Below, one piece after another: positions 4,782 through 19,658 of a DNA stretch of 22,917 nucleotides. The stretch is from positions 1-22,917 of the IMG/VR virus record IMGVR_UViG_3300017719_000224; one strand, written 5' to 3'. Source of the stretch: a virus. The notes below the pieces were generated by a model, which saw only the letters and a program-made list of their open reading frames with translations, was not told the DNA's origin and did not search any database. Numbering within the stretch: position 1 is the stretch's first letter; each line of letters starts with the position of its first letter. A program made the translations under genes and the position numbers.

Positions 4782-5745
4782 TTTCTAATATACTCCTCAC
4801 TGTAAATAATCTACCATAGCGTTCTACTGCATCGCTGGCATCTTTTATATCGTCATCCCATTCAGGAAATGCAACTGCCCAGCCACGCTTTACCGCAACA
4901 TTCACTGTGTCCATTCCTGCTTTATCAAAGTCTGGCAATAGTACTATTTGTTTATCTAGTTCTTCAATTATACTGCATTGAACATTACTAGGTGTGTTGC
5001 CTGCTAGTGCAACGCCGCCTACTTGTAGTGCATCTAACTGTCCCTCTGTTACTATAATTATGTCATGTTTCTTTTGTGCATCTAAATTGAACACAAAGTT
5101 TTTAGGACTTTTCAAATAGTATTTGGGCATGCCTTCTGGTCTACTGTCTGGACACCAACGTGCAGTGTATCCAACTATGTTGCCTTGATGTCTAAACGGC
5201 AGTATAACCCTACTAGCAAAGTGCATGTGTGGGCTCCAATACCAGTCAGTATAAAAGTCTAATCCACGCTTCATAAGATATGTACATGCTAGTGCTAGCT
5301 TATCCAACTGCTTGGAGTCTAGTGTGTCCAATGGATAATTGCCAATTTGATGTGAATCTGGTGGCAGTTCATCTGGATGCCATTCCACTGTGACTTTTTG
5401 TACACGCTCTTTGGGTATAAACTGTCCTGCAATATCATCTGCTTCTTCTTGTTTAAGCAGTTCAAAGTTAACACGCTGTATGTCAGCTTCATCTACACCA
5501 AACGTTTTTAACAATTGTGTAAGTCTACCATTGATACGTTTACCTACACTCCAGCCAGTTTTAAATCCACAGTTAAAACAGTTGTATTGAAACTTATCAT
5601 CATGGAACATAATGCCGCCACGACCACGCTTGTCAGCACTGTGACCGCGAGTGTGACACATTGTACAGTTTCCACTGATCCACCCACTAGGTGTTTGCTT
5701 CCAGCCATAAGGCATGTGCTGACGGATAAAGTCCAATACTATCAT
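4726..5745 (-). CDS. 61: DNA primase, T4 gp61 (DnaG-type)
   Basis: 339 aa, matching T4 gp61 (342). It makes RNA primers for lagging-strand synthesis together with the gp41 helicase. An N-terminal zinc-binding domain has C27-x2-C30, H35 nearby, and C56-x2-C59 (CFNCGF). The TOPRIM catalytic core follows: VTEGQLDAL with E234, and LLPDFDKAG with D272 and D274, which bind Mg2+. An RNA-polymerase-like segment (YWSPHMHFASRVILPF...GYTARW) lies between, as in DnaG-type primases. It lies just downstream of a probable structural gene (9 nt gap) and overlaps the next gene. I see nothing missing from the expected motif set. Confidence 0.95.
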   Translation of the reverse strand: MIVLDFIRQHMPYGWKQTPSGWISGNCTMCHTRGHSADKRGRGGIMFHDDKFQYNCFNCGFKTGWSVGKRINGRLTQLLKTFGVDEADIQRVNFELLKQEEADDIAGQFIPKERVQKVTVEWHPDELPPDSHQIGNYPLDTLDSKQLDKLALACTYLMKRGLDFYTDWYWSPHMHFASRVILPFRHQGNIVGYTARWCPDSRPEGMPKYYLKSPKNFVFNLDAQKKHDIIIVTEGQLDALQVGGVALAGNTPSNVQCSIIEELDKQIVLLPDFDKAGMDTVNVAVKRGWAVAFPEWDDDIKDASDAVERYGRLFTVRSILESVETSSTKIKILAKSRCR

Positions 5746-5754
5746 GTTTTAATA

Positions 5755-6531
5755 TTAACTTCTATAAACGACTTTGTCAAGTGTTCCTGTGTTGCCAGAA
5801 TCTGGTGTGTGAACCAATCTTACAAACTGATAGTTTCCATAAAAGTTATGATAAACCAATCCAGTTTTTGCACTCACTGTATAGCTTTGACTTGGCACAT
5901 CAAAGTAATCAACTTCAGTTGGCTGTATGCTTAGTGTGGCTTGAAACTTGTACACACCTGTATAGTTTGTCATGTGTACCACCGCAGTTTGCAGTCCTTG
6001 CTTGTTTGAGTTTTGAGCAGGACCAGCCATTCTACTGCCAACCCTATCATCACCGTCTATATTAAATGTTGCAACTGTGCTACTGTCTGTTATATTGAGT
6101 AGACTTTGGTCTCTAACATCTACCACAAACGTAAGACGCATGTTGCGATCACTGGTACCGCCATAATTTCCAGCCTGGTCAGTGACGTTATAAGTAACTA
6201 TGAGATCGTGTAGTTTAGCATCCAATAGGAATGTTTCTTCGTGATCCAAATGGAGAACCAACTTACCTGCATCATAGTCGATGGGATTCATATTCTTTTG
6301 AAGAACTTGAGCACCATTTGCTCTATCAACAATAGTTGCAACATATGTTTTATTGTGTATGGCTTGTCTTTTATTGTCCGTGTCTTTTACAAAAAAGTCA
6401 ATGTCAATGTTAAGACCTCTATAAACAACCAAAGGCTTGTGATTGTCTGGGCCATAATATGTAGTGCCTCTGCGTTCTGGGATAAGAATCTCAGATCTTT
6501 GGTTATATTGATATATTGTTGCTTGATACAT
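5755..6531 (-). CDS. Probable virion structural protein (beta-rich)
   Basis: 258 aa from the ATG at 6531, which has GGAG 9 nt upstream; a GTG at 6546 would add only MENIH. The sequence is rich in alternating hydrophobic/polar strands (TYVATIVDRANGAQVLQ, LVLHLDHEETFLLD, LTFVVDVRD) with Tyr/Asn/Thr/Gly-rich turns and no enzyme motif, typical of phage tail, neck or fibre-associated proteins. AATAAATA at 6550-6557, 18 nt before the start, matches 7 of 8 positions of the T4 late promoter TATAAATA, and this supports a late, structural role. It separates the primosome genes from the plus-strand gene. Which virion part it forms is not decidable here. Confidence 0.75.
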   Translation of the reverse strand: MYQATIYQYNQRSEILIPERRGTTYYGPDNHKPLVVYRGLNIDIDFFVKDTDNKRQAIHNKTYVATIVDRANGAQVLQKNMNPIDYDAGKLVLHLDHEETFLLDAKLHDLIVTYNVTDQAGNYGGTSDRNMRLTFVVDVRDQSLLNITDSSTVATFNIDGDDRVGSRMAGPAQNSNKQGLQTAVVHMTNYTGVYKFQATLSIQPTEVDYFDVPSQSYTVSAKTGLVYHNFYGNYQFVRLVHTPDSGNTGTLDKVVYRS

Positions 6532-7695: not shown

Positions 7696-8265
7696 TTAAT
7701 ATCCTAATTGTTCACATATGAGATTCATATGTACGATAACAACCATAGCATAACTTAGTGCGTGTGCTTTCTTAAAATAGTAAGCCTTGTTATCGTTTAC
7801 GGGTTTTACCCATACTTGATCCATTATTGTCTGCCAGCCTTTGTCTTGTAAATGTCGTTTGGCTGGTCTGATAATTGCCAGTGTAGCCGCCAATTGCTGT
7901 ACCGAAGTAGGCTTCAATTGTTTTAATAGACTGTCGTGCCCGCTTAGATGAAATAGCTGATCTACGAAGTCTTTGTGTTCCAGAAGTTCCCATACTGGTT
8001 CCTTTTCCATTAATTGCTTTAGATGATCGTCATCGTTTACGTCTTTGTATATGCTTAGATTAAGTAGATCCAATTTAAAGAATCCCATATCGTCAGCTTG
8101 TGTGTGTTCAACTGTACACACATTTGTAAATGGATTGCTGGGTACTCTATGAAAATAAACACCAGTATTGTGTTTTCTCTTCTTGAGCCTGGCTGGTACA
8201 TTTTTAAATAATTCTAGTGCTTGACTTCTATCTGCAAAGTCAATATCGATATCAGGTAATCCCAT
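7696..8265 (-). CDS. Miniature DnaE/PolC (C-family polymerase) palm-like protein
   Basis: 189 aa. Several segments align by eye with bacterial Pol III alpha: LPDIDIDFADR at 3-13 (alpha PDFDVDF, catalytic D401 and D403), HNTGVYFHRVPSNPFTNV...DDMGFFKLDLLNL at 32-70 (alpha H-GGVVIAP..PVTQF...GLVKFDFLGL, third catalytic Asp; D66 here), LFHLSGHDSLLKQLKPTS near 105-122 (alpha FQLESRGMKDLIKRLQP) with AATLAIIRP after it, and FKKAHALSYAMVVIVHMNL near the end (alpha FNKSHSAAYALVSYQT). PHP, most of the fingers, the beta-binding and OB domains are absent, so independent polymerase activity is doubtful. GGGAG precedes the ATG inside the upstream gene, with 14-nt overlap. I recall conserved cyanophage relatives of unknown function. 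Confidence 0.85.
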   Translation of the reverse strand: MGLPDIDIDFADRSQALELFKNVPARLKKRKHNTGVYFHRVPSNPFTNVCTVEHTQADDMGFFKLDLLNLSIYKDVNDDDHLKQLMEKEPVWELLEHKDFVDQLFHLSGHDSLLKQLKPTSVQQLAATLAIIRPAKRHLQDKGWQTIMDQVWVKPVNDNKAYYFKKAHALSYAMVVIVHMNLICEQLGY

Positions 8266-8959
8266 CTATCATCTCCCGTACAAAGTTTGCATCATGTGGA
8301 TTAAGTTTTGTTTTCTTTCCCCAATGATCTGCATCAATGCTGTTTGCTATTCTCGCAAAACATTCATCTGGCATATTGCTTAATGCTGTTTGCGCTCGTT
8401 TGCTGTTCAACATAATCCATGGCGAAATCTTACCCATTTCACACCATTCAGCTATCAAGTATCCACTAGCATTTTCCCAGAATGTTGCAAAGTAATCTGT
8501 TTCAGCGGCATGCTCTACAAAACGTTCTAGCGCACGTTCTACACTTTCACGTTTACAATGATCCTGTACAAACAACAAATACATTTTATCAGTGGGCCAA
8601 TCTTTGAGTTTGGCTTTGTTTTTAATTAACCAGCGAGTAAATGCTTCTTGATCTATACAGCGTATGTTTAAACAGTATGCACCAAACTTTACAAATGCTG
8701 TATAATACTGACTGTCAACAAAGTCCTTGTATTCCTTAGGCTTGCTTTGCATTTCAATTCTATAAAACAAATCATAACTAGCAAAGCCTACCAAGACATC
8801 TTGATTAAGTTTACTTTGCCAACGTCTTTTCTTTTCACAACTGTGAGCTAGTAATGTGCCTTCACGTTGAAAGCTCTTCTTGCAATAATCACATGTGAAT
8901 TTACCTTTTGTCAATCCTATACTTCCTACTGCATTTACTAGTTCTTCTGCTGTGGTCAT
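8252..8959 (-). CDS. Zinc-finger phage protein, N-terminal CCHC-type finger
   Basis: 235 aa. The N-terminal FTCDYCKKSF...LLAHSC has C23-x2-C26 and H39-x-C41, a compact C2H2/C2HC finger followed by a basic run (EKKRRWQSK) that could contact nucleic acid. The rest is alpha-helical with many aromatic residues (YYTAFVKFGAYC, ISPWIMLNSKRAQTALS) and a C-terminal DADHWGKK...FVREMI segment. From memory a protein of this architecture precedes the DnaE-like gene in marine T4-like phages, so the two may act together. ATGA overlap with the upstream gene and 14-nt overlap with the downstream gene imply coupled translation. Function unknown; nucleic-acid binding is inferred. Confidence 0.85.
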   Translation of the reverse strand: MTTAEELVNAVGSIGLTKGKFTCDYCKKSFQREGTLLAHSCEKKRRWQSKLNQDVLVGFASYDLFYRIEMQSKPKEYKDFVDSQYYTAFVKFGAYCLNIRCIDQEAFTRWLIKNKAKLKDWPTDKMYLLFVQDHCKRESVERALERFVEHAAETDYFATFWENASGYLIAEWCEMGKISPWIMLNSKRAQTALSNMPDECFARIANSIDADHWGKKTKLNPHDANFVREMIDGIT

Positions 8960-10300: not shown

Positions 10301-11751
10301 TTATAATCCACTTTCTCTATATGAAAGGGGTACTTGGCTTCTCGATAAAATTTCTTTCGCTCAGTCAAATGCCTCTTGCTAAATTTTGCACTGCTTGTTA
10401 TATCCCATATCTGTACATGATCTTTGTCTTGTGCTTTACGTATACCTCTACCAATACTTTGTATTACCCTAACGAAACTTTTGCCAGGCTCCACGAGAAC
10501 CAAGTTAAAAATACGAGGAATGTTAATACCCACGGCAGCCACACCATAGGTTGCAACGATAATTTTGTTGTCAACTTCACTAATTTCATCATATTGATCT
10601 TTCCTATTTTTGCTTTTCATTGAACCACTGACAAACACTGTATCATCGCCAAGTCGTTCTACTAGTCCTTCTCCTGCACTAATACGATCTACCAGCACCA
10701 ATGTATTACCACTTTGCGCCATTGTTTGTATTAGTCCACTCATGTAATCTAGTCTGTTCTTATCTGTTGTAAGATAAGTTAATTCACTTTGGTAGTTGCC
10801 ATAACTCACTGTGTCTTGTAGCTGTAGTACGTTTACTTCGCATTGTGCTAGCACACCCATGTCTTGTAGTTCGTGTGCGCTCAAACTATTGGTTACTTCT
10901 CCCAAGCTCACTTCCAAGCTCAAGCGTTCATGTTCTGCTTTAGGTATCGTGCCTGTAAGCCCCCAGCGAATTGGAATATTGCTGAACGCTCCAGTAAGCA
11001 GTTTTTTCAGGACGTCTGCTTTGGCTTGATGAACTTCGTCCACCATAACACACACGACACCTTCTGCAAAATGGTGCAACCCTTCGTCCGCTAGTCCGTC
11101 ACGGAATCTTTTTTCGAGAACGTTCAAACTCTGCCAAGTACATATGGTATGAGTTCTCCCTAATTCTTTTCTATCACCGAAGTAAACACCTACATCTAGT
11201 CCCAAATTAATATAGTCAGCTTCTGTTTGAGTGACCAAATCTTTGTTTGGAACAATAACAATACTGCGACCATAGGCTTCACACATATAGCTTAGTGCCG
11301 CAGTAATCAATGTTTTACCAGCACCTGTTGCAATTTCTTGCAAACACTGCGGTGTCTTTAAAAACTTATTGATAACTTCAACTTGATAATCTCTGAGTAC
11401 AACTGGCTCACCTGCAGCCGGATGCTTGTCGGGCCATTGTCTATCACTGAACAGTTGTTCTGTTACAGTGTCCCATTTGAGATCATGTGGTTGTCTGTGA
11501 TCCTCTATCTCAATACCGTAGCCTTCTTCGTCCAGTATGGGAAGTATAGTGGGCAAGCAGTTTACAAAGGTGCTACCACCCATAGTAAAGTAACCCACAC
11601 AGCCATCCCAACGTCCAAGTTTATATGCTGGTACGTGATATGCATGCGGCAAAAAGAACTTTAGTTTCTTTTCTAGCTTGCGTCGAGTGGTTAATCCAAG
11701 TCCTTCGAACTTGCAATTAACCTCATCTTTGAGGATAAGTTTTGTTTTCAT
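10297..11751 (-). CDS. uvsW: UvsW RNA/DNA and DNA/DNA helicase
   Basis: 484 aa (T4 UvsW about 500). This SF2 helicase unwinds branched DNA and R-loops, rewinds forks, and helps the switch from origin- to recombination-dependent replication. An N-terminal UvsW-specific domain (AYKLGRWDG near 43-50, as in T4) is followed by Walker A ATGAGKT at 141-147, motif Ia VIVPNKDLVTQ, DEVH at 238-241, motif III GLTGT at 264-268, and C-terminal motifs (VDRISAGEGLV, VATYGVAAVGINIP, QSIGRGIRKA). The start agrees with the T4 N-terminus. A sigma70-like promoter lies so close that the mRNA would begin at the A of the ATG; no Shine-Dalgarno is present. Confidence 0.95.
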   Translation of the reverse strand: MKTKLILKDEVNCKFEGLGLTTRRKLEKKLKFFLPHAYHVPAYKLGRWDGCVGYFTMGGSTFVNCLPTILPILDEEGYGIEIEDHRQPHDLKWDTVTEQLFSDRQWPDKHPAAGEPVVLRDYQVEVINKFLKTPQCLQEIATGAGKTLITAALSYMCEAYGRSIVIVPNKDLVTQTEADYINLGLDVGVYFGDRKELGRTHTICTWQSLNVLEKRFRDGLADEGLHHFAEGVVCVMVDEVHQAKADVLKKLLTGAFSNIPIRWGLTGTIPKAEHERLSLEVSLGEVTNSLSAHELQDMGVLAQCEVNVLQLQDTVSYGNYQSELTYLTTDKNRLDYMSGLIQTMAQSGNTLVLVDRISAGEGLVERLGDDTVFVSGSMKSKNRKDQYDEISEVDNKIIVATYGVAAVGINIPRIFNLVLVEPGKSFVRVIQSIGRGIRKAQDKDHVQIWDITSSAKFSKRHLTERKKFYREAKYPFHIEKVDYK

Positions 11752-11757
11752 GTTTTA

Positions 11758-11786
11758 ATAATACGCTCTAATTTAGAGTTTGTCAA
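11758..11786 (-). promoter_or_regulatory. Sigma70-type promoter of uvsW with palindromic spacer
   Basis: TTGACA (11781-11786), an exact 17-nt spacer and TATTAT (11758-11763). The spacer contains the dyad CTCTAAATTAGAG (11766-11778). The -10 is followed by TAAAAC and then ATG, so a start site 7 nt downstream of the -10 would be the first base of the start codon. Confidence 0.8.
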
Positions 11787-11984: not shown

Positions 11985-12122
11985 ACTTATAAAATAAGGG
12001 GACTAGTAAGACTTCTTACTAGCCCCCCGGGACCTAACTGGTGTGAGTGAGAGTGACGCAGACAGAGGAGTACACCAGTTAGTATTGGTAGCCATTGCTA
12101 TTGCAACTGTCTGGCTACCAAA
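11985..12122 (-). ncRNA. Three-hairpin noncoding segment ending in a terminator-like stem
   Basis: Three inverted repeats lie in tandem after the AAA+ gene. (1) TTGGTAGCCA/TGGCTACCAA (12085-12094 and 12112-12121, 10 bp) encloses a second TTGC/GCAA stem. (2) CTAACTGGTGT/ACACCAGTTAG (12034-12044 and 12072-12082, 11 bp) has a 27-nt loop. (3) CTAGTAAG/CTTACTAG (12003-12010 and 12015-12022) is extended by four G:C pairs past one mismatch; on the minus strand TTATTTTAT follows it. Hairpin 3 looks like an intrinsic terminator. Hairpins 1 and 2 are more structure than a terminator needs, so a small RNA or a 3'-UTR processing element is suggested. No coding frame fits. Confidence 0.55.
11998..12027 (-). 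terminator. Probable intrinsic terminator after the AAA+ ATPase gene
   Basis: An 8-bp stem with loop AAGT on the minus strand is extended by GGGG/CCCC beyond a single mismatch, and a U-rich run (UUAUUUUAU) follows. The loop region overlaps AAGANNTCTT, the palindrome also found in promoter spacers elsewhere in this window. Confidence 0.6.
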
Positions 12123-12127
12123 TTCTT

Positions 12128-13147
12128 TTATATCCTTTTCATACAAGTGGACTCTGCATAACTCTTCCACTTGTTGGCATTCATTTTACGAAGATCAGCA
12201 ATCTTCAACACCATACGCAAGCTCATTTCACGCAAGCGATTCTTATTGGTGTAGATATATTCCATAAGATCTTTTTGTTCATGTTCACTAAACTTGTAAC
12301 TGTTTAACATACCATCAGCAACGATTTGTTTACAACGCAAGAACTTGTCACGCATTGTGTCTAGTGTCAAGTCCAAGTAGTGACAACGACTCATAATAGC
12401 ATCTAGGTGATCTTTTAGTTTACCACGTGTTCGTTCAAACTTTACATTGGTAATAAAAATGATCGAACCTTTAAACTCAAAGCTGTCTGGCACACCATTG
12501 TTAGCAAGCGCACGACTTTCACTGCGCCAGCTTAGTGTTCGCTTTGGGCTACTATCCAATGCCGCTTTGAGCAAGTTCAAGCTGAGTTCATCATACAGCA
12601 CACTATCACAGTCATCTAATACTAGTACACTACCGTCTCCACTGTAATCATACAGCAATTGATAAAGACCAATTGGAGTAGCGGCACCTTTTTCAACACC
12701 AAACTTACGGTTGCTGTTTTGAGACATTTTTAACATAATGCCTGCATCCTTGAGCACCTTCTCAACTCCAAAACTTTTACCAACACCCGGAGGTCCAGTA
12801 ACTACCATGCCACGCACAACCCCATCACATGACGCATATGTCATGTCTTCTAGGATTTGAAATCGCTCCCGTAACCGTTCAATGACTTGATCATCTGTTT
12901 CAGCTTGGGCGGCTTGGGCTGACACAACATTCTCTCCGTCTTCGAGGTAGTCGAATTCACTTTGATCGACTACTTTGATCCGAATGGATCGGTCCGGGAA
13001 ACCAGGCACTGCACTACCATCAACTGTAATGAAGCTACCTGTTTTGCCTTGTTTAAATTCTTTAACTAATGGAAACACTACGTCCTTCACATTAATGTTA
13101 CGGTATGTACCGTTTGCGATACGCACTTGCTTTTCTGTTGTCTGCAT
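12128..13147 (-). CDS. AAA+ ATPase
   Basis: 339 aa. N-terminal about 100 residues of unknown fold (RNINVKDVVFPLVKEF...), then an AAA+ module: Walker A GPPGVGKS at 118-125, Walker B LVLDDCDS at 175-182, sensor-1-like FITN in GSIIFITNVKF, and a C-terminal helical lid (DLMEYIYTNKNRLREMSLRMVLKIADLR) with a possible sensor-2 arginine. This architecture fits a remodelling ATPase; the substrate is unknown. Similar AAA proteins are, from memory, common in marine T4-like phages. It has its own promoter (TTGACA at 13204-13209), a leader of about 28 nt and AAGGAG before the ATG. It is followed by three hairpins, so it may be a single-gene unit. Confidence 0.9.
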   Translation of the reverse strand: MQTTEKQVRIANGTYRNINVKDVVFPLVKEFKQGKTGSFITVDGSAVPGFPDRSIRIKVVDQSEFDYLEDGENVVSAQAAQAETDDQVIERLRERFQILEDMTYASCDGVVRGMVVTGPPGVGKSFGVEKVLKDAGIMLKMSQNSNRKFGVEKGAATPIGLYQLLYDYSGDGSVLVLDDCDSVLYDELSLNLLKAALDSSPKRTLSWRSESRALANNGVPDSFEFKGSIIFITNVKFERTRGKLKDHLDAIMSRCHYLDLTLDTMRDKFLRCKQIVADGMLNSYKFSEHEQKDLMEYIYTNKNRLREMSLRMVLKIADLRKMNANKWKSYAESTCMKRI

Positions 13148-13181
13148 TGGTTCTCACTCCTTTTTAACAACTTATATAAAC

Positions 13182-13209
13182 ATATTAACATCTATGTATC
13201 TAATGTCAA
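13182..13209 (-). promoter_or_regulatory. Sigma70-type promoter of the AAA+ gene
   Basis: TTGACA (13204-13209), a 16-nt spacer and TAATAT (13182-13187); reading AATATG with 17 nt is an alternative. The -35 contains the TGA stop of the preceding 234-aa gene. The spacer AGATA...GATGTTA resembles that of the promoter at 13942-13969. Confidence 0.65.
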
Positions 13210-13910
13210 CCTTTTATTTCATTTATTTTTACATAATTAAACACAGTTTCTTTGCAGTTACTGAATTTACTAACGTCATGTGTTTTTACTTTACCAGTAA
13301 GTATAACATCTTTGCCTTCTAAAATACCAGCAATATCAGGTTCACGATTAAAGAAGAATTTACAGATGTTGCCTTTGGTATCCAAACAGGTCACCAAATG
13401 AATCGAATATTTTGCAATAAACTTTACATCTTTGATGTTTACTTGAAACATAAGACGTTCGCCAGCAGTACCAATAAATTCACTAGTTTTACGATATTGA
13501 TCAAAGAAATCATCCAATCCTTGACGCTTGCTCAACACACGAAAACTATTTGGCAAACTTGCTAGAATTGCAACGCCAAATCCATCAACTGCTTCATCAC
13601 TGAGGCAACGCAATACATTACCTTCAAAGTCATTTATATTGCCCATCATCTTTTTGGCAATCAGTTCATGTTTAAATTCGTCTACAATCTTATCTGCTTG
13701 TTCAACACAGTCTTCTGTAATTGTGAATTCTTCAGCGCCTTCTATACTCTGCATAAAGTTGAGAATACAAGTCTTGTTATCGTAAACACGCTTTTCATTT
13801 TCTCTGTCGTAATATCCAAACCCACTTTTGATAAAGCCTTGTTTGGCATCAACTGCAATAGCAAGTTCAAGTACTTGACGAGTATTATACTGTTGTTTTT
13901 GACGAGCCAT
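13206..13910 (-). CDS. Conserved hypothetical protein, possible OB-like C-terminal domain
   Basis: 234 aa. A basic N-terminus (MARQKQQYNTRQVLELA) leads into a mixed helical part. The C-terminal third alternates strands: FIAKYSIHLVTCLDTKGNICKFFFNRE and GKDVILTGKVKTHDVSKFSN...VFNYVKINEI. The "LxGKVKxH...F..C..T.LNYVK" pattern is reminiscent of OB-fold modules found in phage replication-associated proteins, but this is only a by-eye impression. GAGGAT precedes the ATG, and a promoter lies at 13942-13969. Its stop codon lies in the -35 box of the next promoter. Function unknown. Confidence 0.82.
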   Translation of the reverse strand: MARQKQQYNTRQVLELAIAVDAKQGFIKSGFGYYDRENEKRVYDNKTCILNFMQSIEGAEEFTITEDCVEQADKIVDEFKHELIAKKMMGNINDFEGNVLRCLSDEAVDGFGVAILASLPNSFRVLSKRQGLDDFFDQYRKTSEFIGTAGERLMFQVNIKDVKFIAKYSIHLVTCLDTKGNICKFFFNREPDIAGILEGKDVILTGKVKTHDVSKFSNCKETVFNYVKINEIKG

Positions 13911-13941
13911 CTTCTTATCCTCTGTTCTGTTTTACTAGTTT

Positions 13942-13969
13942 ATAATAACATCAAGATATCTTATGTCAA
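13942..13969 (-). promoter_or_regulatory. Sigma70-type promoter with AAGATATCTT spacer palindrome
   Basis: TTGACA (13964-13969), a 16-nt spacer and TATTAT (13942-13947); ATTATA with 17 nt is also readable. The perfect palindrome AAGATATCTT (13953-13962) starts 1 nt after the -35. The -35 embeds the TGA stop of the small membrane-protein gene. It drives the 234-aa gene starting at 13910. Confidence 0.7.
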
Positions 13970-14148
13970 CCTAATATAAACAATAATAATAAAAAACCTG
14001 CAATAAATGTGAAAATAATTCTGCATATAAAACCCAGTATATTGCCTAGCAATCTAAAAATACTAAATTTTTTACGGGGAGGATTAGTGTAATAGATATC
14101 ATTTATCAGATCATCTTCAGCCTGTTGTATTGTGATATCGTCTTTCAT
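13966..14148 (-). CDS. Small membrane protein after tRNA-Ser
   Basis: 60 aa from ATG 14148, preceded by GAGGA at good spacing; the longer frame from 14193 would run into the tRNA-Ser gene and is rejected. The acidic N-terminus (MKDDITIQQAEDDLINDIYY) is followed by a basic PPRKK and a long hydrophobic helix (LLGNILGFICRIIFTFIAGFLLLLFILG) to the C-terminus, giving an N-in tail-anchored topology. It lies 18 nt downstream of tRNA-Ser and is probably on the same transcript. Function unknown. Confidence 0.8.
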   Translation of the reverse strand: MKDDITIQQAEDDLINDIYYTNPPRKKFSIFRLLGNILGFICRIIFTFIAGFLLLLFILG

Positions 14149-14165
14149 AGTGTCCTCAATATAAG

Positions 14166-14254
14166 TGGCGGAGGATGTGGGAGTCGAACCCACTCAACGC
14201 TGTTAGCGTTGTACGGATTAGCAATCCGCTGCATTACCGTCCTGCCCATCCTCC
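14166..14254 (-). tRNA. tRNA-Ser (GCT)
   Basis: Acceptor GGAGGAT/ATCCTCC, anticodon loop TTGCTAA (GCT), a long variable arm (ACGCTAACAGCGT) as expected for serine, and a T arm with GGTTCGACTCC. Discriminator G and an encoded CCA (14166-14168). It reads AGC/AGU codons. Confidence 0.95.
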
Positions 14255-14270
14255 TTACTTATAATGTACA

Positions 14271-14504
14271 CTATTTACTGAATAAGTCAAGTTGTTTTGT
14301 GTAATTTTTAACAGTTTCTACAGTCATTACTCGTGTGATCCAATTCTCTGCGGCATCAGTGACATAGTGACGACTTTTATTAGGATATTCAATTCGACCT
14401 ACAATTTGGTTGTCTTCAAAAAAACTACACATCAAGTATTCGTCATCCACAAAACTAATGATTGCTTCTCGATTGTCTTTTTGAAATTTATTGTAATAGT
14501 CCAT
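14271..14504 (-). CDS. Hypothetical 77-aa protein inside the tRNA island
   Basis: 77 aa, beginning MDYYNKFQKDNREAIISFVDD. It has charged and aromatic residues (DEYLMCSFFEDNQIVGRIEYPNKSRHYVTDAAENW), no membrane helix and no known motif. AAGGA lies 7 nt before the ATG. It is placed between tRNA-Gln upstream and tRNA-Ser downstream, so its mRNA is probably released by tRNA processing on both sides. Function unknown. Confidence 0.75.
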   Translation of the reverse strand: MDYYNKFQKDNREAIISFVDDEYLMCSFFEDNQIVGRIEYPNKSRHYVTDAAENWITRVMTVETVKNYTKQLDLFSK

Positions 14505-14528
14505 TAATGTTTCCTTTTGTATCTTACT

Positions 14529-14603
14529 TGGCTGGAACGATAGGACTCGAACCTATACTCTGCGCTACCAAAAAGCGATGCATTACCATTATGCTACGTT
14601 CCA
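14529..14603 (-). tRNA. tRNA-Gln (TTG)
   Basis: Acceptor TGGAACG/CGTTCCA with the U1-A72 pair usual for glutamine, anticodon loop TTTTGGT (TTG), T loop GGTTCGAGTCC, discriminator G, encoded CCA at 14529-14531. It sits 3 nt from tRNA-Leu. The anticodon stem has one outer mismatch (T27-C43). Confidence 0.93.
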
Positions 14604-14606
14604 TTA

Positions 14607-14690
14607 TGGTGCCCTGGGAGAGACTCGAACTCTCACGCCGTAAAGCACAGGTACCTAAAACCTGCGTGTCTACCATTTCACCACCAGGGC
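14607..14690 (-). tRNA. tRNA-Leu (TAG)
   Basis: Acceptor GCCCTGG/CCAGGGC, anticodon loop TTTTAGG (TAG), a long variable arm (class II) as expected for leucine, T arm GAGTTCGAGTC, discriminator A and an encoded CCA at 14607-14609. It decodes CUN codons. Confidence 0.95.
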
Positions 14691-14694
14691 TAAG

Positions 14695-14770
14695 TGGTGC
14701 TCCCACACGGACTCGAACCGCGGACCTATTGATTACAAATCAATTGCTCTACCAGCTGAGCTATAGGAGC
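14695..14770 (-). tRNA. tRNA-Thr (TGT)
   Basis: Acceptor GCTCCTA/TGGGAGC, D arm AGCTCAGCTGGTAGAGC, anticodon loop TTTGTAA (TGT), T arm GCGGTTCGAGTCCGT, discriminator A and an encoded CCA at 14695-14697. It is four bases upstream of tRNA-Leu(TAG), giving a three-tRNA run with Gln. Confidence 0.95.
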
Positions 14771-14777
14771 GTTTTTA

Positions 14778-14984
14778 TTATGAGAAATGTTTGTTTAACA
14801 TTTCAATGCGATCTTCTGATGCAGCCATTTTATCCAGTTCTTCTTGGATTGCTTCTACAATATCACTGTGTTCGCCAATACCAACACTTTGATTCATATA
14901 AACTAAAATATTTGTTTTAGCACGTTCTAGCTCGCCTTCAGCATGCATACGTGCGGCTTTAACTAATTGAGCACTCATACTCAT
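14778..14984 (-). CDS. Conserved small helical phage protein
   Basis: 68 aa, mostly helix: MSMSAQLVKAARMHAEGELERAK, then NILVYMNQSVGIGEH, then a second helix (SDIVEAIQEELDKMAASEDRIEMLNKHF). Proteins with the same layout and a "NxVGIGEH" turn are, from memory, widespread in marine T4-like phages, with no known function. The ATG overlaps the stop of the 44-aa gene upstream (ATGA), with GGAATG before it. It is a short helical-hairpin protein, so a binding or adaptor role is possible. tRNA-Thr follows 7 nt downstream. Confidence 0.85.
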   Translation of the reverse strand: MSMSAQLVKAARMHAEGELERAKTNILVYMNQSVGIGEHSDIVEAIQEELDKMAASEDRIEMLNKHFS

Positions 14985-15115
14985 TTTACATTCCTTTCAT
15001 TATATTTTATCATAATTGTCCATTCTGGGTGTTTGTTAACAAGTTCATTTGCTTCTAACAAACTATCATAGGTATCTATGATACTTCCAGTTTTAAGATT
15101 CATTACATAATACAT
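14981..15115 (-). CDS. 44-aa peptide gene
   Basis: A small gene found by reading the gap: ATG 15115 to TGA 14981, peptide MYYVMNLKTGSIIDTYDSLL followed by EANELVNKHPEWTIMIKYNERNVK. Its start overlaps the upstream stop (TAATG) and its stop overlaps the downstream start (ATGA), strong signs of a real gene in a coupled series. A strand (YYVMNLKTGSIID), a helix and a second strand (WTIMIKY) suggest a tiny beta-alpha-beta fold. No relative is recognised. Confidence 0.8.
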   Translation of the reverse strand: MYYVMNLKTGSIIDTYDSLLEANELVNKHPEWTIMIKYNERNVK

Positions 15116-15555
15116 TATTCGTGTTCGCCGCCGTAACCACGTGAATTGATTCCGTTGTCTCTACGGAACGCATTTGGATTACGTTTGGCTGTTTCAAATG
15201 TTGCTACTGTTACTGCAATAGCTCCTAGCAATAGTGTGTGTAGCATCATACTAAACACTCCTGCCCACATGCTACCTACAATGATAGCAAATACAATACA
15301 CCACATCCATGCCAATACTTGCATGATCATATGTCGTGTGCTGAAGTCCGGAATGTTGCTTAGTGGATTTCGTTTATGGTCCATTACTACATTCCAGCAA
15401 TTAAATACCCATTCTCTCATATCTTTTCCTTTTTCAAATGTTACCTTTAAGGGATAATGTGCGTCAACAGTATCTCGATAATCAATTGCATCGTATAGAT
15501 CATAGAACTTACGAACTATTTTCTTATCTTTGAAATATGCTGTTACTTTGTACAT
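15115..15555 (-). CDS. Two-helix membrane protein ending in GGEHE
   Basis: 146 aa. A soluble N-terminal half (MYKVTAYFKDKKIVRKFYDL...VTFEKGKDMREWVFN) is followed by two membrane helices, about 82-100 (QVLAWMWCIVFAIIVGSMWAG) and 104-121 (MMLHTLLLGAIAVTVATFE), and a C-terminal polar tail RRDNGINSRGYGGEHE. I have the impression that this tail is conserved in marine T4-like phages. A CATAAATA octamer (15581-15588) 25 nt upstream matches T4-type late promoters and overlaps the end of the preceding tRNA. The stop overlaps the 44-aa gene. Function unknown. Confidence 0.82.
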   Translation of the reverse strand: MYKVTAYFKDKKIVRKFYDLYDAIDYRDTVDAHYPLKVTFEKGKDMREWVFNCWNVVMDHKRNPLSNIPDFSTRHMIMQVLAWMWCIVFAIIVGSMWAGVFSMMLHTLLLGAIAVTVATFETAKRNPNAFRRDNGINSRGYGGEHE

Positions 15556-15586
15556 TTTACTTATTCGTTTATTGTTTCATTATTTA

Positions 15587-15662
15587 TGGTGCGCCCGGTA
15601 GGATTCGAACCTACAGTCGACCCGTTATGAGCGGGGGGCTTTAACCGTTAAGCTACAGGCGC
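15587..15662 (-). tRNA. tRNA with CAT anticodon (Met, or Ile2)
   Basis: Acceptor GCGCCTG/CGGGCGC, D arm AGCTTAACGGTTAAAGC, anticodon loop CTCATAA (CAT), T arm GTAGGTTCGAATCCTAC, discriminator A, encoded CCA at 15587-15589. The first acceptor pair is a normal G-C and there is no clear three-G:C initiator signature, so it is not initiator-like. Elongator Met and lysidine-modified Ile (AUA) cannot be told apart by eye. Confidence 0.93.
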
Positions 15663-15667
15663 TGTTT

Positions 15668-15751
15668 TGGTACTCGCACCCGGACTCGAACCGGGACGCC
15701 ATATGGCCACAGATTTTAAGTCTGTTATGTCTACCATTCCATCATGCGAGC
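15668..15751 (-). tRNA. tRNA-Leu (TAA)
   Basis: Acceptor GCTCGCA/TGCGAGT (a G-U first pair), anticodon loop CTTAAAA (TAA), long variable arm (GGCCATATGGC), T arm CCGGTTCGAGTCCGG, discriminator A, encoded CCA at 15668-15670. It decodes UUA/UUG. Five bases separate it from the CAT tRNA. Confidence 0.94.
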
Positions 15752-15756
15752 GTTAT

Positions 15757-15833
15757 TGGCCTGCCCTAGAGGATTCGAACCTCTGACCTAGTGCTTAGAA
15801 GGCACTTGCTCTATCCAGCTGAGCTAAGGGCAG
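15757..15833 (-). tRNA. tRNA-Arg (TCT)
   Basis: Acceptor CTGCCCT/AGGGCAG, D arm AGCTCAGCTGGATAGAGC, anticodon loop CTTCTAA (TCT), T arm AGAGGTTCGAATCCTCT, discriminator G, encoded CCA at 15757-15759. It decodes AGA/AGG, which are favoured in AT-rich genomes. Confidence 0.95.
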
Positions 15834-15846
15834 TTTAAATCCTTTC

Positions 15847-16215
15847 TTACGCTACTAGTTCGTAAGGCTTGTTCCATTGACCAACATTGATGTCAGTGTA
15901 GTGACTGCGACTGAAGTAATCAGACATTGCGTCATCGTCGTTAAAATACTTAGGACCTTTCATAGCCGCTAACAGCTCATTTAGAAAGTCACGCTTGACG
16001 CCATCATAGTGGCTATCAATCCAGTATTCGTTAACTTGACAGTATCCATCACCGTGTGTAAAACTATCGCTAAAATCAAGAGCGCCTGCTTTAATATTCA
16101 CAGCAAGTGTTGAATGATTACGAACAGCAATACTAGCTTTCATTTTGTATTTTTTTAATACATCTTTAATTGCTGGTGCTAGTTCTTTTTTCATCTTTTG
16201 GGATACATATGCCAT
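15847..16215 (-). CDS. Conserved hypothetical protein (LPD29-like)
   Basis: 122 aa. MAYVSQKMKKELAPAIKDVLKKY, ASIAVRNHSTLAVNIKAGALDF, QVNEYWIDSHY and YFNDDDAMSDYFSRSHYTDINVGQWNKPY form a pattern I associate with the large polyvalent protein-associated domain LPD29, found free-standing in many phages; the family name is from memory. Likely alpha/beta fold, function unknown. It has its own strong promoter (16253-16281) with a spacer palindrome. In the leader the AGGA Shine-Dalgarno is the loop of a CGAAG/CTTCG hairpin (16219-16232), so both transcription and translation may be controlled. tRNA-Arg lies 13 nt downstream. Confidence 0.85.
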   Translation of the reverse strand: MAYVSQKMKKELAPAIKDVLKKYKMKASIAVRNHSTLAVNIKAGALDFSDSFTHGDGYCQVNEYWIDSHYDGVKRDFLNELLAAMKGPKYFNDDDAMSDYFSRSHYTDINVGQWNKPYELVA

Positions 16216-16218
16216 TTT

Positions 16219-16232
16219 CGAAGTCCTCTTCG
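16219..16232 (-). promoter_or_regulatory. Ribosome-binding site presented in a hairpin loop
   Basis: The minus strand reads CGAAG-AGGA-CTTCG directly before AAAATG. A 5-bp stem holds the AGGA of the Shine-Dalgarno in a four-base loop, 3 nt plus the start codon downstream. Such structures can slow or tune initiation; the effect here is inferred. Confidence 0.45.
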
Positions 16233-16252
16233 TTTGTTTAACTTACAATAAT

Positions 16253-16281
16253 AATATAGCAGTAAGACGTCTTGTTGTCAA
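16253..16281 (-). promoter_or_regulatory. Sigma70-type promoter with AAGACGTCTT spacer palindrome
   Basis: TTGACA (16276-16281), an exact 17-nt spacer and TATATT (16253-16258). The palindrome AAGACGTCTT (16264-16273) lies in the middle of the spacer, where a bound protein would block or re-shape polymerase binding. It drives the 122-aa gene. Confidence 0.82.
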
Positions 16282-16283
16282 GA

Positions 16284-16301
16284 AAAAAAGACGTCTTTTT
16301 T
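16284..16301. repeat. 18-bp A/T-flanked palindrome, possible second operator or terminator
   Basis: A perfect palindrome of six A, GACGTC and six T. It contains a second AAGACGTCTT whose centre is 24 bp from the one in the promoter spacer. It lies between the stop of the 84-aa gene and the -35 of the next promoter. The T-run could also make it a weak bidirectional terminator. Confidence 0.6.
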
Positions 16302-16310
16302 AATCTTTTT

Positions 16311-16565
16311 TTACCATTCTTTGAATGTACCTGCATCTTCGTTATCACGATAGCCAGCAGTATAAGCAGTGATTTGCTCGGGTGTCATATCTTTCATTTC
16401 GATACGAGTACCTTTTTGTGTACCTTCGGGCCAATAGTGAGGATCAAAGCTTCGTCCATAATAACTATCAGCACCGCCCCTATCATAGGGTCCACCATGT
16501 ACTTCATCATATAGTGGCAATTTAGTTGAAAGTTTTGCTTCAACATCTACAGGTAAAGACGACAT
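16311..16565 (-). CDS. Conserved hypothetical 84-aa protein
   Basis: 84 aa with a striking centre: GGPYDRGGADSYYGRSFDPHYWP, then a Thr/Glu-rich segment and YTAGYRDNEDAGTFKEW at the end. From memory, small phage proteins with "DRGSADSYYGR..PHYWP" are widespread, also beyond T4-likes, and unassigned. It is the last gene of a three-gene unit; its ATG overlaps the upstream stop (TAATG). An 18-bp palindrome follows its stop. Probably an early host-interaction protein, by position only. Confidence 0.8.
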   Translation of the reverse strand: MSSLPVDVEAKLSTKLPLYDEVHGGPYDRGGADSYYGRSFDPHYWPEGTQKGTRIEMKDMTPEQITAYTAGYRDNEDAGTFKEW

Positions 16566-16876
16566 TACGCAGCCTCCTTTTCTCTACAAATATTTTCGAT
16601 ATGCCGTTCAATAGCACTATCGCTCCAATTAGCAAAGTCTAAGGAACGTGCATAACCTTTACTGACATAATCAGCAGTAATATAGTACGCATCTTCTTCT
16701 AGTTGAATACGGTTATATTCTTTAAGAGTACCCGAAGGAACACGATCACTCCAATACTCAGTTTCAGTTGCCGCAGGCATCATGCCCATCCAACAACCAG
16801 GTTGCTTTGAAAACTCTTCAGCTTCCTTGCGTTGAGCGTTGATATAGTCAACTAGTGCAGTTTCCATATTATACAT
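16565..16876 (-). CDS. Conserved hypothetical 103-aa protein
   Basis: 103 aa, starting MYNMETALVDYINAQ. The start is fixed by the TAATG overlap with the upstream gene. The middle is rich in Tyr, Trp and acidic residues (ATETEYWSDRVPSGTLKEYNRIQLEEDAYYITADYV), and the C-terminus is helical (SAIERHIENICREKEAA). No catalytic or membrane motif is seen. It is the second gene of a coupled three-gene unit read from the promoter at 17159-17187. Function unknown. Confidence 0.8.
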   Translation of the reverse strand: MYNMETALVDYINAQRKEAEEFSKQPGCWMGMMPAATETEYWSDRVPSGTLKEYNRIQLEEDAYYITADYVSKGYARSLDFANWSDSAIERHIENICREKEAA

Positions 16877-17124
16877 TATGCTACCTCTCCAAACAGTTTT
16901 CCCATATTTTCGAACACTACATTATAAGCATTCACTTCAGCTTCATACCACTCATAAAAGTCTTCATCATCTTCAAAGCGTTCACTACCACTGGCATGTT
17001 CATCCCATACACGTTGCATAGCATTCATACCTTCAAGTGCATCACCACGACCAAAGTTTGTGATTGTGTTCCAAGCACTAGTAAAATCTACTGTGTTTTG
17101 ATAAAAACTAGGGATTCTAAACAT
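16876..17124 (-). CDS. Conserved hypothetical 82-aa acidic protein
   Basis: 82 aa, acidic. It begins MFRIPSFYQNTVDFTSAWNT and contains MNAMQRVWDEHASGSERFEDDEDFYEWYEAEVNAYN. The likely fold is a few helices without membrane segments. It is the first gene of the three-gene unit, with its own promoter about 35 nt upstream and AAGGA before the ATG. Such short acidic proteins near strong early promoters are typical of phage takeover genes, but no target is known here. Confidence 0.78.
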   Translation of the reverse strand: MFRIPSFYQNTVDFTSAWNTITNFGRGDALEGMNAMQRVWDEHASGSERFEDDEDFYEWYEAEVNAYNVVFENMGKLFGEVA

Positions 17125-17158
17125 CGTGTATTCCTTCTTTGTTTCTAACTATACATAT

Positions 17159-17187
17159 AATATAGCACCAAGAAGTCTTACTGTCAA
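17159..17187 (-). promoter_or_regulatory. Sigma70-type promoter with AAGACTTCTT spacer element
   Basis: TTGACA (17182-17187), an exact 17-nt spacer and TATATT (17159-17164). The spacer holds AAGACTTCTT on the minus strand (17170-17179). The spacer end TGC and -10 TATATTAT are identical to those of the promoter at 16253-16281, suggesting one promoter family. It drives the 82/103/84-aa gene unit. Confidence 0.82.
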
Positions 17188-18547: not shown

Positions 18548-19658
18548 TGGTTAATTCTTCCTTGGGTAAGACGTCTTGTTCATCGTCGATATTTACCTCC
18601 GGAAGGTCTTCTACAGCGTCTACGACATCATCGTCCCATTCGCTCATAATAAGATCCAAAGCATTATCTTTGTTAGCATTCCAAGGTTTGCGGAACATTT
18701 TAATTACTTCACCTGTTTTAGGGCTAGTATATTCTAAACTGTTGCCACTCTTCTTTAGAATCTCTTTTGCTTCAAAGAATTCAACAAGTCCACTATATGG
18801 ACTCATTCCTGTCTCATATGGAATTTCTACTTGTACACTTTCAAAGGGTTTAGCATAACGTGTTTTCATTACCTTACACGCCGCTCGAATACCATGTACT
18901 TGTGATGTTTTGTTACCATCTGCGTCTACTTTTAGTTTGAGTTTACGCATAGCAATAACAATACTACTTGCATAGATAAAGCCTTGACCACCTGAGATTT
19001 TATCATCCGGGTCAAACATATCTTGTGATGCATATGTATGGTTAGTTGCTAGTAGTCCTACGTTAAATTCACCAAACATGTTAACTGTGTTACGAACTAA
19101 TGAAGTTAGTGCTTTGGGCTTACGACCCATATCACCTTTCATATCACCTTTTTGAAACTGATCAACATCAGTTGGTGTTAGTAGCATACCCAACGAATCA
19201 ACTACAAACAATACCTTAGGACGATCTTCATGATCTTTGTCTGTGTATTCTGATTTGTAGTCTTTCATAAAGTCACTGATAGTTCTAGCAACATCATCGA
19301 TCATACTCATATTAAGTTTGAGTAGTTTATCTTCTGCTGTATCAACGTCTAGTGCATGCAACCATTTTTCATCTAGTGCATTTTCACTGTCAATTAGTAC
19401 TACAAAGATACCTTGCTCTTGTGCTGACTTGATTACATTACCTGCCGCAATATAACTTTTGCCTGCACCCGATTCACCTGCGAGTACTGTTACTTTACCT
19501 AGTGGAATACCTTTTTCAAATTCTCCACTGATTAGTTTGTTTAGTGTGTAATTACCTGTACTGATCCATGTGTCCGGATCATTAAACCCAACACTTAGTC
19601 CGGGCACCGCTTTGGTAATACTTTTGCGGAATTTACTTACGTCAAAAGGCTTTGCCAT
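18534..19658 (-). CDS. uvsX: RecA-like recombinase UvsX
   Basis: 374 aa from ATG 19658 (MAKPFDVSKFRK), which has GGAG 6 nt upstream; an in-frame TTG four codons earlier is rejected. UvsX forms the filament on ssDNA that carries out strand exchange. Walker A GESGAGKS at 61-68, a VVLIDSEN strand with the conserved acidic residue, Walker B KVLFVVDSLG, the RecA-like LLATNHTY and DKISGGQGFIYASSIVIAMRK segments, and a highly acidic C-terminal tail (WDDDVVDAVEDLPEVNIDDEQD). The tail DNA carries AAGACGTCTT (18568-18577), also found in a promoter. Confidence 0.96.
   Translation of the reverse strand: MAKPFDVSKFRKSITKAVPGLSVGFNDPDTWISTGNYTLNKLISGEFEKGIPLGKVTVLAGESGAGKSYIAAGNVIKSAQEQGIFVVLIDSENALDEKWLHALDVDTAEDKLLKLNMSMIDDVARTISDFMKDYKSEYTDKDHEDRPKVLFVVDSLGMLLTPTDVDQFQKGDMKGDMGRKPKALTSLVRNTVNMFGEFNVGLLATNHTYASQDMFDPDDKISGGQGFIYASSIVIAMRKLKLKVDADGNKTSQVHGIRAACKVMKTRYAKPFESVQVEIPYETGMSPYSGLVEFFEAKEILKKSGNSLEYTSPKTGEVIKMFRKPWNANKDNALDLIMSEWDDDVVDAVEDLPEVNIDDEQDVLPKEELTNENE

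Follow-up and report, generated by a model that had tools for sequence, protein, structure and literature searches.

A palindrome in the promoter spacers of a marine T4-like phage group as a probable operator of early genes

Results

The DNA studied here is the whole of IMG/VR record IMGVR_UViG_3300017719_000224 (22,917 bases, hereafter the window), a fragment of a T4-like phage that encodes UvsX, UvsY, a UvsW-like helicase and a gp32-like protein and carries nearly all of its genes on the minus strand. The element in question is a short palindrome (dyad), AAGANNTCTT, with the arms AAGA and TCTT. Seven exact copies are present in the window, beginning at 8793, 12008, 13953, 16264, 16288, 17170 and 18568, against a mean of 0.42 and a maximum of 2 in dinucleotide shuffles of the window. 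The copies at 13953, 16264 and 17170 lie in the 16-17 base pair (bp) spacers of minus-strand promoters of the TTGACA/TATATT type, and those at 8793 and 18568 are coding sequence (Table 1). An earlier note on this DNA had expected the dyad less than about once per window by chance and counted at least six copies, three of them in the spacers of these very promoters, one at 16288-16297 and one in a terminator-like hairpin. All of these were recovered, the promoters being on the minus strand, the fourth copy just 5' of the 16281 promoter's -35 and the fifth at the hairpin apex.

The three promoters have the sigma70-type -35, TGn and -10 elements of a T4-type early promoter. Early promoters of this type are strong -35/TGn/-10 promoters for the host polymerase and are located 5' of small genes of unknown function (PMC2988021, PMC1524935). 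The dyad promoters share both the build and the kind of target gene, but in T4, HTVC008M and Syn9 no spacer dyad is repeated. The genes under dyad promoters encode mostly small proteins of unknown function, together with an operon of the family of the 234-amino acid (aa) open reading frame (ORF) and an AAA ATPase; in 20 loci of the gene of the 234-aa ORF, this gene comes first 3' of a dyad promoter. The 16281 promoter probably also drives the transfer RNA genes that follow the phrog_10415 ORF. Judging from the sigma70-type promoters, the regulated genes are probably early. It could be argued that the dyad is the site of an activator, or of a co-factor by which RNA polymerase is redirected, in a role like that of MotA at T4 middle promoters, as a spacer dyad could equally serve an activator and T4-like phages use sigma appropriation for their middle genes (PMC2988021). 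However, MotA boxes replace the -35 (PMC2988021), whereas TTGACA is intact at all three window promoters and no MotA box of a middle promoter is found there, and a perfect -35, a TG, a near-perfect -10 and 17-bp spacers leave hardly any need for activation. We regard an activator as very improbable.

Table 1. Dyad copies, promoters and associated genes in the window
Feature	Position	Strand	Remark
Promoter TTGACA-GTAAGACTTCTTGGTGC-TATATT, 17-bp spacer, extended -10 TG	17187-17159	-	Dyad AAGACTTCTT at 17170-17179
82-aa ORF, function unknown	17124-16876	-	Driven by the 17187 dyad promoter
Promoter TTGACA-ACAAGACGTCTTACTGC-TATATT, 17-bp spacer, TG	16281-16253	-	Dyad AAGACGTCTT at 16264-16273
122-aa ORF, phrog_10415, function unknown	16215-15847	-	Driven by the 16281 dyad promoter
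Second AAGACGTCTT	16288-16297	-	24 bp centre to centre from the 16264 spacer copy
Promoter TTGACA-TAAGATATCTTGATGT-TATTAT, 16-bp spacer, TG	13969-13942	-	Dyad AAGATATCTT at 13953-13962
234-aa ORF, phrog_2319-like	13910-13206	-	Driven by the 13969 dyad promoter
Terminator-like hairpin, followed by TTATTTTATAAGTA	12028-11997	-	Dyad AAGAAGTCTT at apex (12008-12017)
AAGACGTCTT close to the uvsX 3' end	18568-18577	-	About 20 bp before ORF 18547-18290
AAGATGTCTT within phrog_11058 ORF (8252-8959)	8793-8802	-
uvsW promoter, spacer CTCTAAATTAGAG	11786-11758	-	Counter-example, dyad not conserved

The count against chance suggested in the earlier note exceeded the chance level in relatives as well as in the window. 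In ten large IMG/VR relatives (1.08 megabases), the pattern TTGACAN{1,8}AAGANNTCTT had 49 matches and its reversed control 2. Scans of IMG/VR with the -10 included gave at least 120 matches with the real dyad, compared with 112 with a control dyad of identical composition, and a scan without the -10 did not discriminate the real dyad. Among the matches listed, two or more dyad promoters occurred in 31 of 80 loci but in none of 80 control-dyad loci, and a ribosome-binding site and ATG followed the dyad at 110 of 123 real sites compared to 25 of 72 control sites. Loci chosen by means of an unrelated protein family, c206, held 18 unique AAGA promoters and none for five control dyads. The dyad is thus a multi-copy element enriched in promoters relative to controls.

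All 1,792 dyads of the 4+4 form with gaps of 0-6 were also enumerated in the spacers of predicted promoters and compared with shuffled spacers; in the relatives, ORFs came from a simple script and promoters were called by consensus. AAGA..TCTT was the commonest dyad in nine genomes (G027, G023, G025, G021, G022, G024, G002, G001 and G006), being present for example in 13 of the 39 promoter spacers of G027, and in none of 300 trials did shuffled spacers match the maximum observed, with the exception of G006 (0.02). The AAGA genomes in this set had partly been selected for the motif, whereas Melnitz and G003 had not. In G003 the top dyad is GTAAGGNNCCTTAC, related to AAGA..TCTT with both halves changed. 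The cultured Methylophilales phage Melnitz belongs to the same phage group and has a phrog_10415 orthologue that is 59% identical, and one spacer dyad is common to 10 of its 25 promoters, but this dyad is TGTTNNNNNAACA (TGTT.....AACA) and not AAGANNTCTT. In the published description of Melnitz, 31 early promoters are reported and the word palindrome is absent (PMC9004378). In T4, HTVC008M and Syn9 no dyad rose above shuffles and none occurred more than twice in the enumeration; TTGACA followed by the dyad is absent from these three phages and from Sinorhizobium phage phiM12. Shared non-AAGA spacer motifs were spotted by eye among promoters of three other genomes, namely TGTCCAACCTGC in G004 (L195-L199), GGTCCAACC-like spacers in G004 and G015 (L210-L212) and CACGAATCGTG-like spacers in G018 (L207-L209). 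As 4+4 dyads they were not significant in the enumeration test, and they were rejected as further examples.

Conservation of the dyad at aligned promoters of relatives, the other check that had been proposed, was seen at each of the three promoters. At the 17170 site, at least 25 of the 37 distinct homologues aligned have the AAGA/TCTT arms intact, and the core dinucleotide between them takes many forms; the corresponding counts are at least 28 of 42 at the 16264 site and 13 of 16 at the 13953 site. The TTGACA promoter is kept 5' of the phrog_10415 orthologue in tens of IMG/VR loci; its dyad is kept in one clade, where the core is CG, GT, CA, TA or TG. The copy at 16288 persists in 5 of the 12 homologues aligned, one of which, L147, has ATGACGTCTT as its spacer copy. 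As an internal control, the uvsW, AAA gene, gp32 and primase promoters retain their -35 and -10 in relatives while their spacers drift. The different spacer dyad that the earlier note had described at uvsW does exist, but it is not conserved in relatives, and it was dropped as a second operator type. At the primase and uvsW promoters (5742-5780 and 11748-11786), the -10 is only a few bases 5' of the ATG (TATTATTAAAACATG), which suggests that both transcripts are near-leaderless.

Outside promoters, the arms of the hairpin dyad (12008) are present in 17 of 17 distinct homologues with seven different cores. As TTGACA was part of the search patterns, this site is independent of the motif-based selection of relatives. 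In the RNA form, the fourth A and the T opposite to it would be loop positions; both are invariant, whereas the two bases between them vary, and this favours recognition of the hairpin dyad as DNA. At the end of uvsX (18568), 11 of 20 homologues preserve the arms, and the core varies between V, I and F codons, including a non-synonymous change. The 8793 site is identical in 8 of 8 aligned homologues, and since its core is also invariant, coding constraint is inseparable from conservation of the site. Directly 3' of the dyad hairpin there is also a sequence, TATAAGTA, that is near the T4 late promoter TATAAATA and is kept in homologues.

A non-redundant set of 194 dyad promoters served to derive the shape of the site. 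In nearly all of them the dyad begins 3, 2, 5 or 8 bp past the -35, and its occurrence in several registers sets it apart from the promoter consensus. Its flanks are symmetric (A, G/C and T/C on the left, A/G, C/G and T on the right), giving the extended form A-S-Y-AAGA-NN-TCTT-R-S-T, and the core is mostly CA, CG, TA, CT or TG. The site thus has conserved symmetric half-sites and a free spacing core, as expected of the operator of a dimeric DNA-binding regulator; AAGACATCTT is a sequence with the dyad intact and AAGACATGAA an example of a designed arm mutant.

In T4-type phages, cassettes of an early promoter and a stem-loop have been described as mobile units, and the shared spacer could reflect common descent of promoter cassettes copied around the genome, with no regulator involved. 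Over 55 bp that take in the leader, the promoters at 16281 and 17187 show 71% similarity (repeat family D2), which is compatible with a mobile cassette of promoter and stem-loop, and leaders such as GTAAGTTAAACAAA..GGAG recur. Copying should, however, preserve the core and the non-palindromic part of the spacer, yet the core is the freest part; the dyad also stands in several registers and within hairpins and coding sequence, and promoters of the same genomes that lack it do not share spacers. We therefore consider copying an improbable source of the repeated dyad.

Discussion

We consider it fairly probable that AAGANNTCTT is the operator of a phage-encoded dimeric regulator, which probably represses a subset of early promoters. 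The earlier note had taken the palindromes for regulator binding sites, and this holds to the extent that they are a real, multi-copy and conserved promoter element, present in a broad group of uncultured marine T4-like phages, with the signature of a dimeric site; the uvsW dyad as a second type had to be given up. Each half-site would be read by one subunit of the dimer, the two core bases serving only to space the half-sites. The operator would occupy the space separating the -10 from a perfect -35, so that a bound protein would block the host RNA polymerase. This position makes repression the likeliest function, either as shut-off or as set-point control, and the same is suggested by these sigma70-type promoters having no need of an activator. 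The repressed targets would be a subset of the strong sigma70-type early promoters, and further operator sites would be found in terminator-like hairpins and in a few genes.

In promoters of phages and bacteria, classic repressor operators sit between the -35 and the -10. The palindrome is similar to these in that it overlaps the footprint of RNA polymerase on strong sigma70 promoters, but here it occurs genome-wide in T4-like phages, and no recognised repressor or integrase was found in the records scanned. Another comparison is provided by the stoperators of Cluster A mycobacteriophages, which are asymmetric sites bound by the immunity repressor of temperate phages (PMC9283540, PMC6550527). 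In both systems many operator-like sites are dispersed in each genome, and here too some are outside promoters, whereas the stoperator is asymmetric and the present dyad is symmetric. No description of a spacer palindrome at T4-like early promoters was found in the open-licence literature searched, and text searches of such papers gave no relevant match for the motif, in agreement with the earlier suggestion of an undescribed switch.

Several observations weigh against an operator of a phage regulator. The motif itself was used to retrieve many of the relatives, which makes their counts subject to ascertainment, and the controls answer this only in part. One half-site is lost in some relatives. 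The flanking half-site bases do not covary among the 194 promoters, although symmetric flanks, a free core and non-covarying pairs are as expected from independent recognition of the half-sites by a dimer. RHH_1 and HTH_3 profiles matched none of the ten large records (the window genome itself being a fragment), and the integrase profile PF00589 was likewise without a match in these records, which may be incomplete. Pfam scans of small ORFs in G027 (205 kilobases, most small ORFs scanned) and G003 showed one HTH family, HTH_39, in G027, among the first 25 families listed for each scan; G001, G002, G003 and the window lack the HTH_39 gene.

The lack of a recognised phage repressor in the RHH_1, HTH_3 and small-ORF scans would fit a host-encoded regulator that reads the sites, with the phage exploiting host control, and so would the occurrence of one dyad type across many diverged phages, which could share hosts. 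AGACGTCT may resemble the MetJ met box. MetJ requires tandem 8-bp met boxes, but there is a single box per promoter here, and the neighbouring octamers TGACAACA and TACTGCTA are not met boxes. In addition, an exact promoter-dyad scan of GTDB returned 75 stretches, mostly from metagenome-assembled genomes (MAGs) of Clostridia and, by record titles, from no evidently marine pelagic host. The earlier note had left phage and host open as sources of the regulator; given that the arrangement was in no evidently marine pelagic GTDB host, the host is the less likely of the two, and we judge a host regulator to be unlikely. The likeliest source of the binding protein is the phage, and it would be conserved within this marine T4-like group. 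The GTDB stretches (L613-L687) contained a longer dyad, AAGAAGANNTCTTCTT, in TTGACA..TATAAT spacers of many mainly gut Clostridia MAGs, often 5' of lipoprotein or zinc-ribbon genes; it looks like a separate undescribed regulon that is independent of the phage dyad.

Two protein families are candidates for a phage-encoded regulator. In G006, G007, G022, G025 and G027 the HTH_39 gene, which encodes a winged-helix protein, lies between the gene of the 234-aa ORF and the AAA gene in an operon that begins with a dyad promoter. It is within the dyad operon of further genomes as well, and its position makes the HTH_39 protein a good lead, although several genomes with the dyad lack it. Melnitz gene 224 (L224:38447-38710) encodes a winged-helix relative of this candidate, two genes 5' of the sliding clamp gene. 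The second candidate, c206, is an orphan family of 93 aa present in G001, G002, G006 and G023-G027, although the contigs that gave its first members had been selected for the motif. Of 80 loci, most have a c206 promoter that retains the right half, TCTTAC, but from which the left half has been lost. The family was not found in phage isolates, and its structure model (predicted local distance difference test score, pLDDT, 75) had no match among PDB structures; we see in c206 a lead. The small ORFs of the window were rejected as regulators, having no Pfam DNA-binding domain, as was the window's 234-aa ORF, the model of which is helical at the N-terminus and ends in a beta domain with OB-like topology.

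Related phage groups probably use other operator sequences. A possible but doubtful extension is that each lineage of these lytic phages has its own set of palindromic operators (AAGANNTCTT, GTAAGGNNCCTTAC and, in Melnitz, TGTTNNNNNAACA) with a matching, fast-changing repressor, which would shut off early promoters and possibly exclude superinfecting relatives, while the hairpin sites would act as roadblocks to elongation. It is known that AsiA does not explain the shut-off of early promoters in T4 (PMC2988021). An operator-based answer to early shut-off is now directly testable, with lineage-specific versions that include the cultured phage Melnitz, and the protein that binds the dyad would probably define a new phage regulator family.

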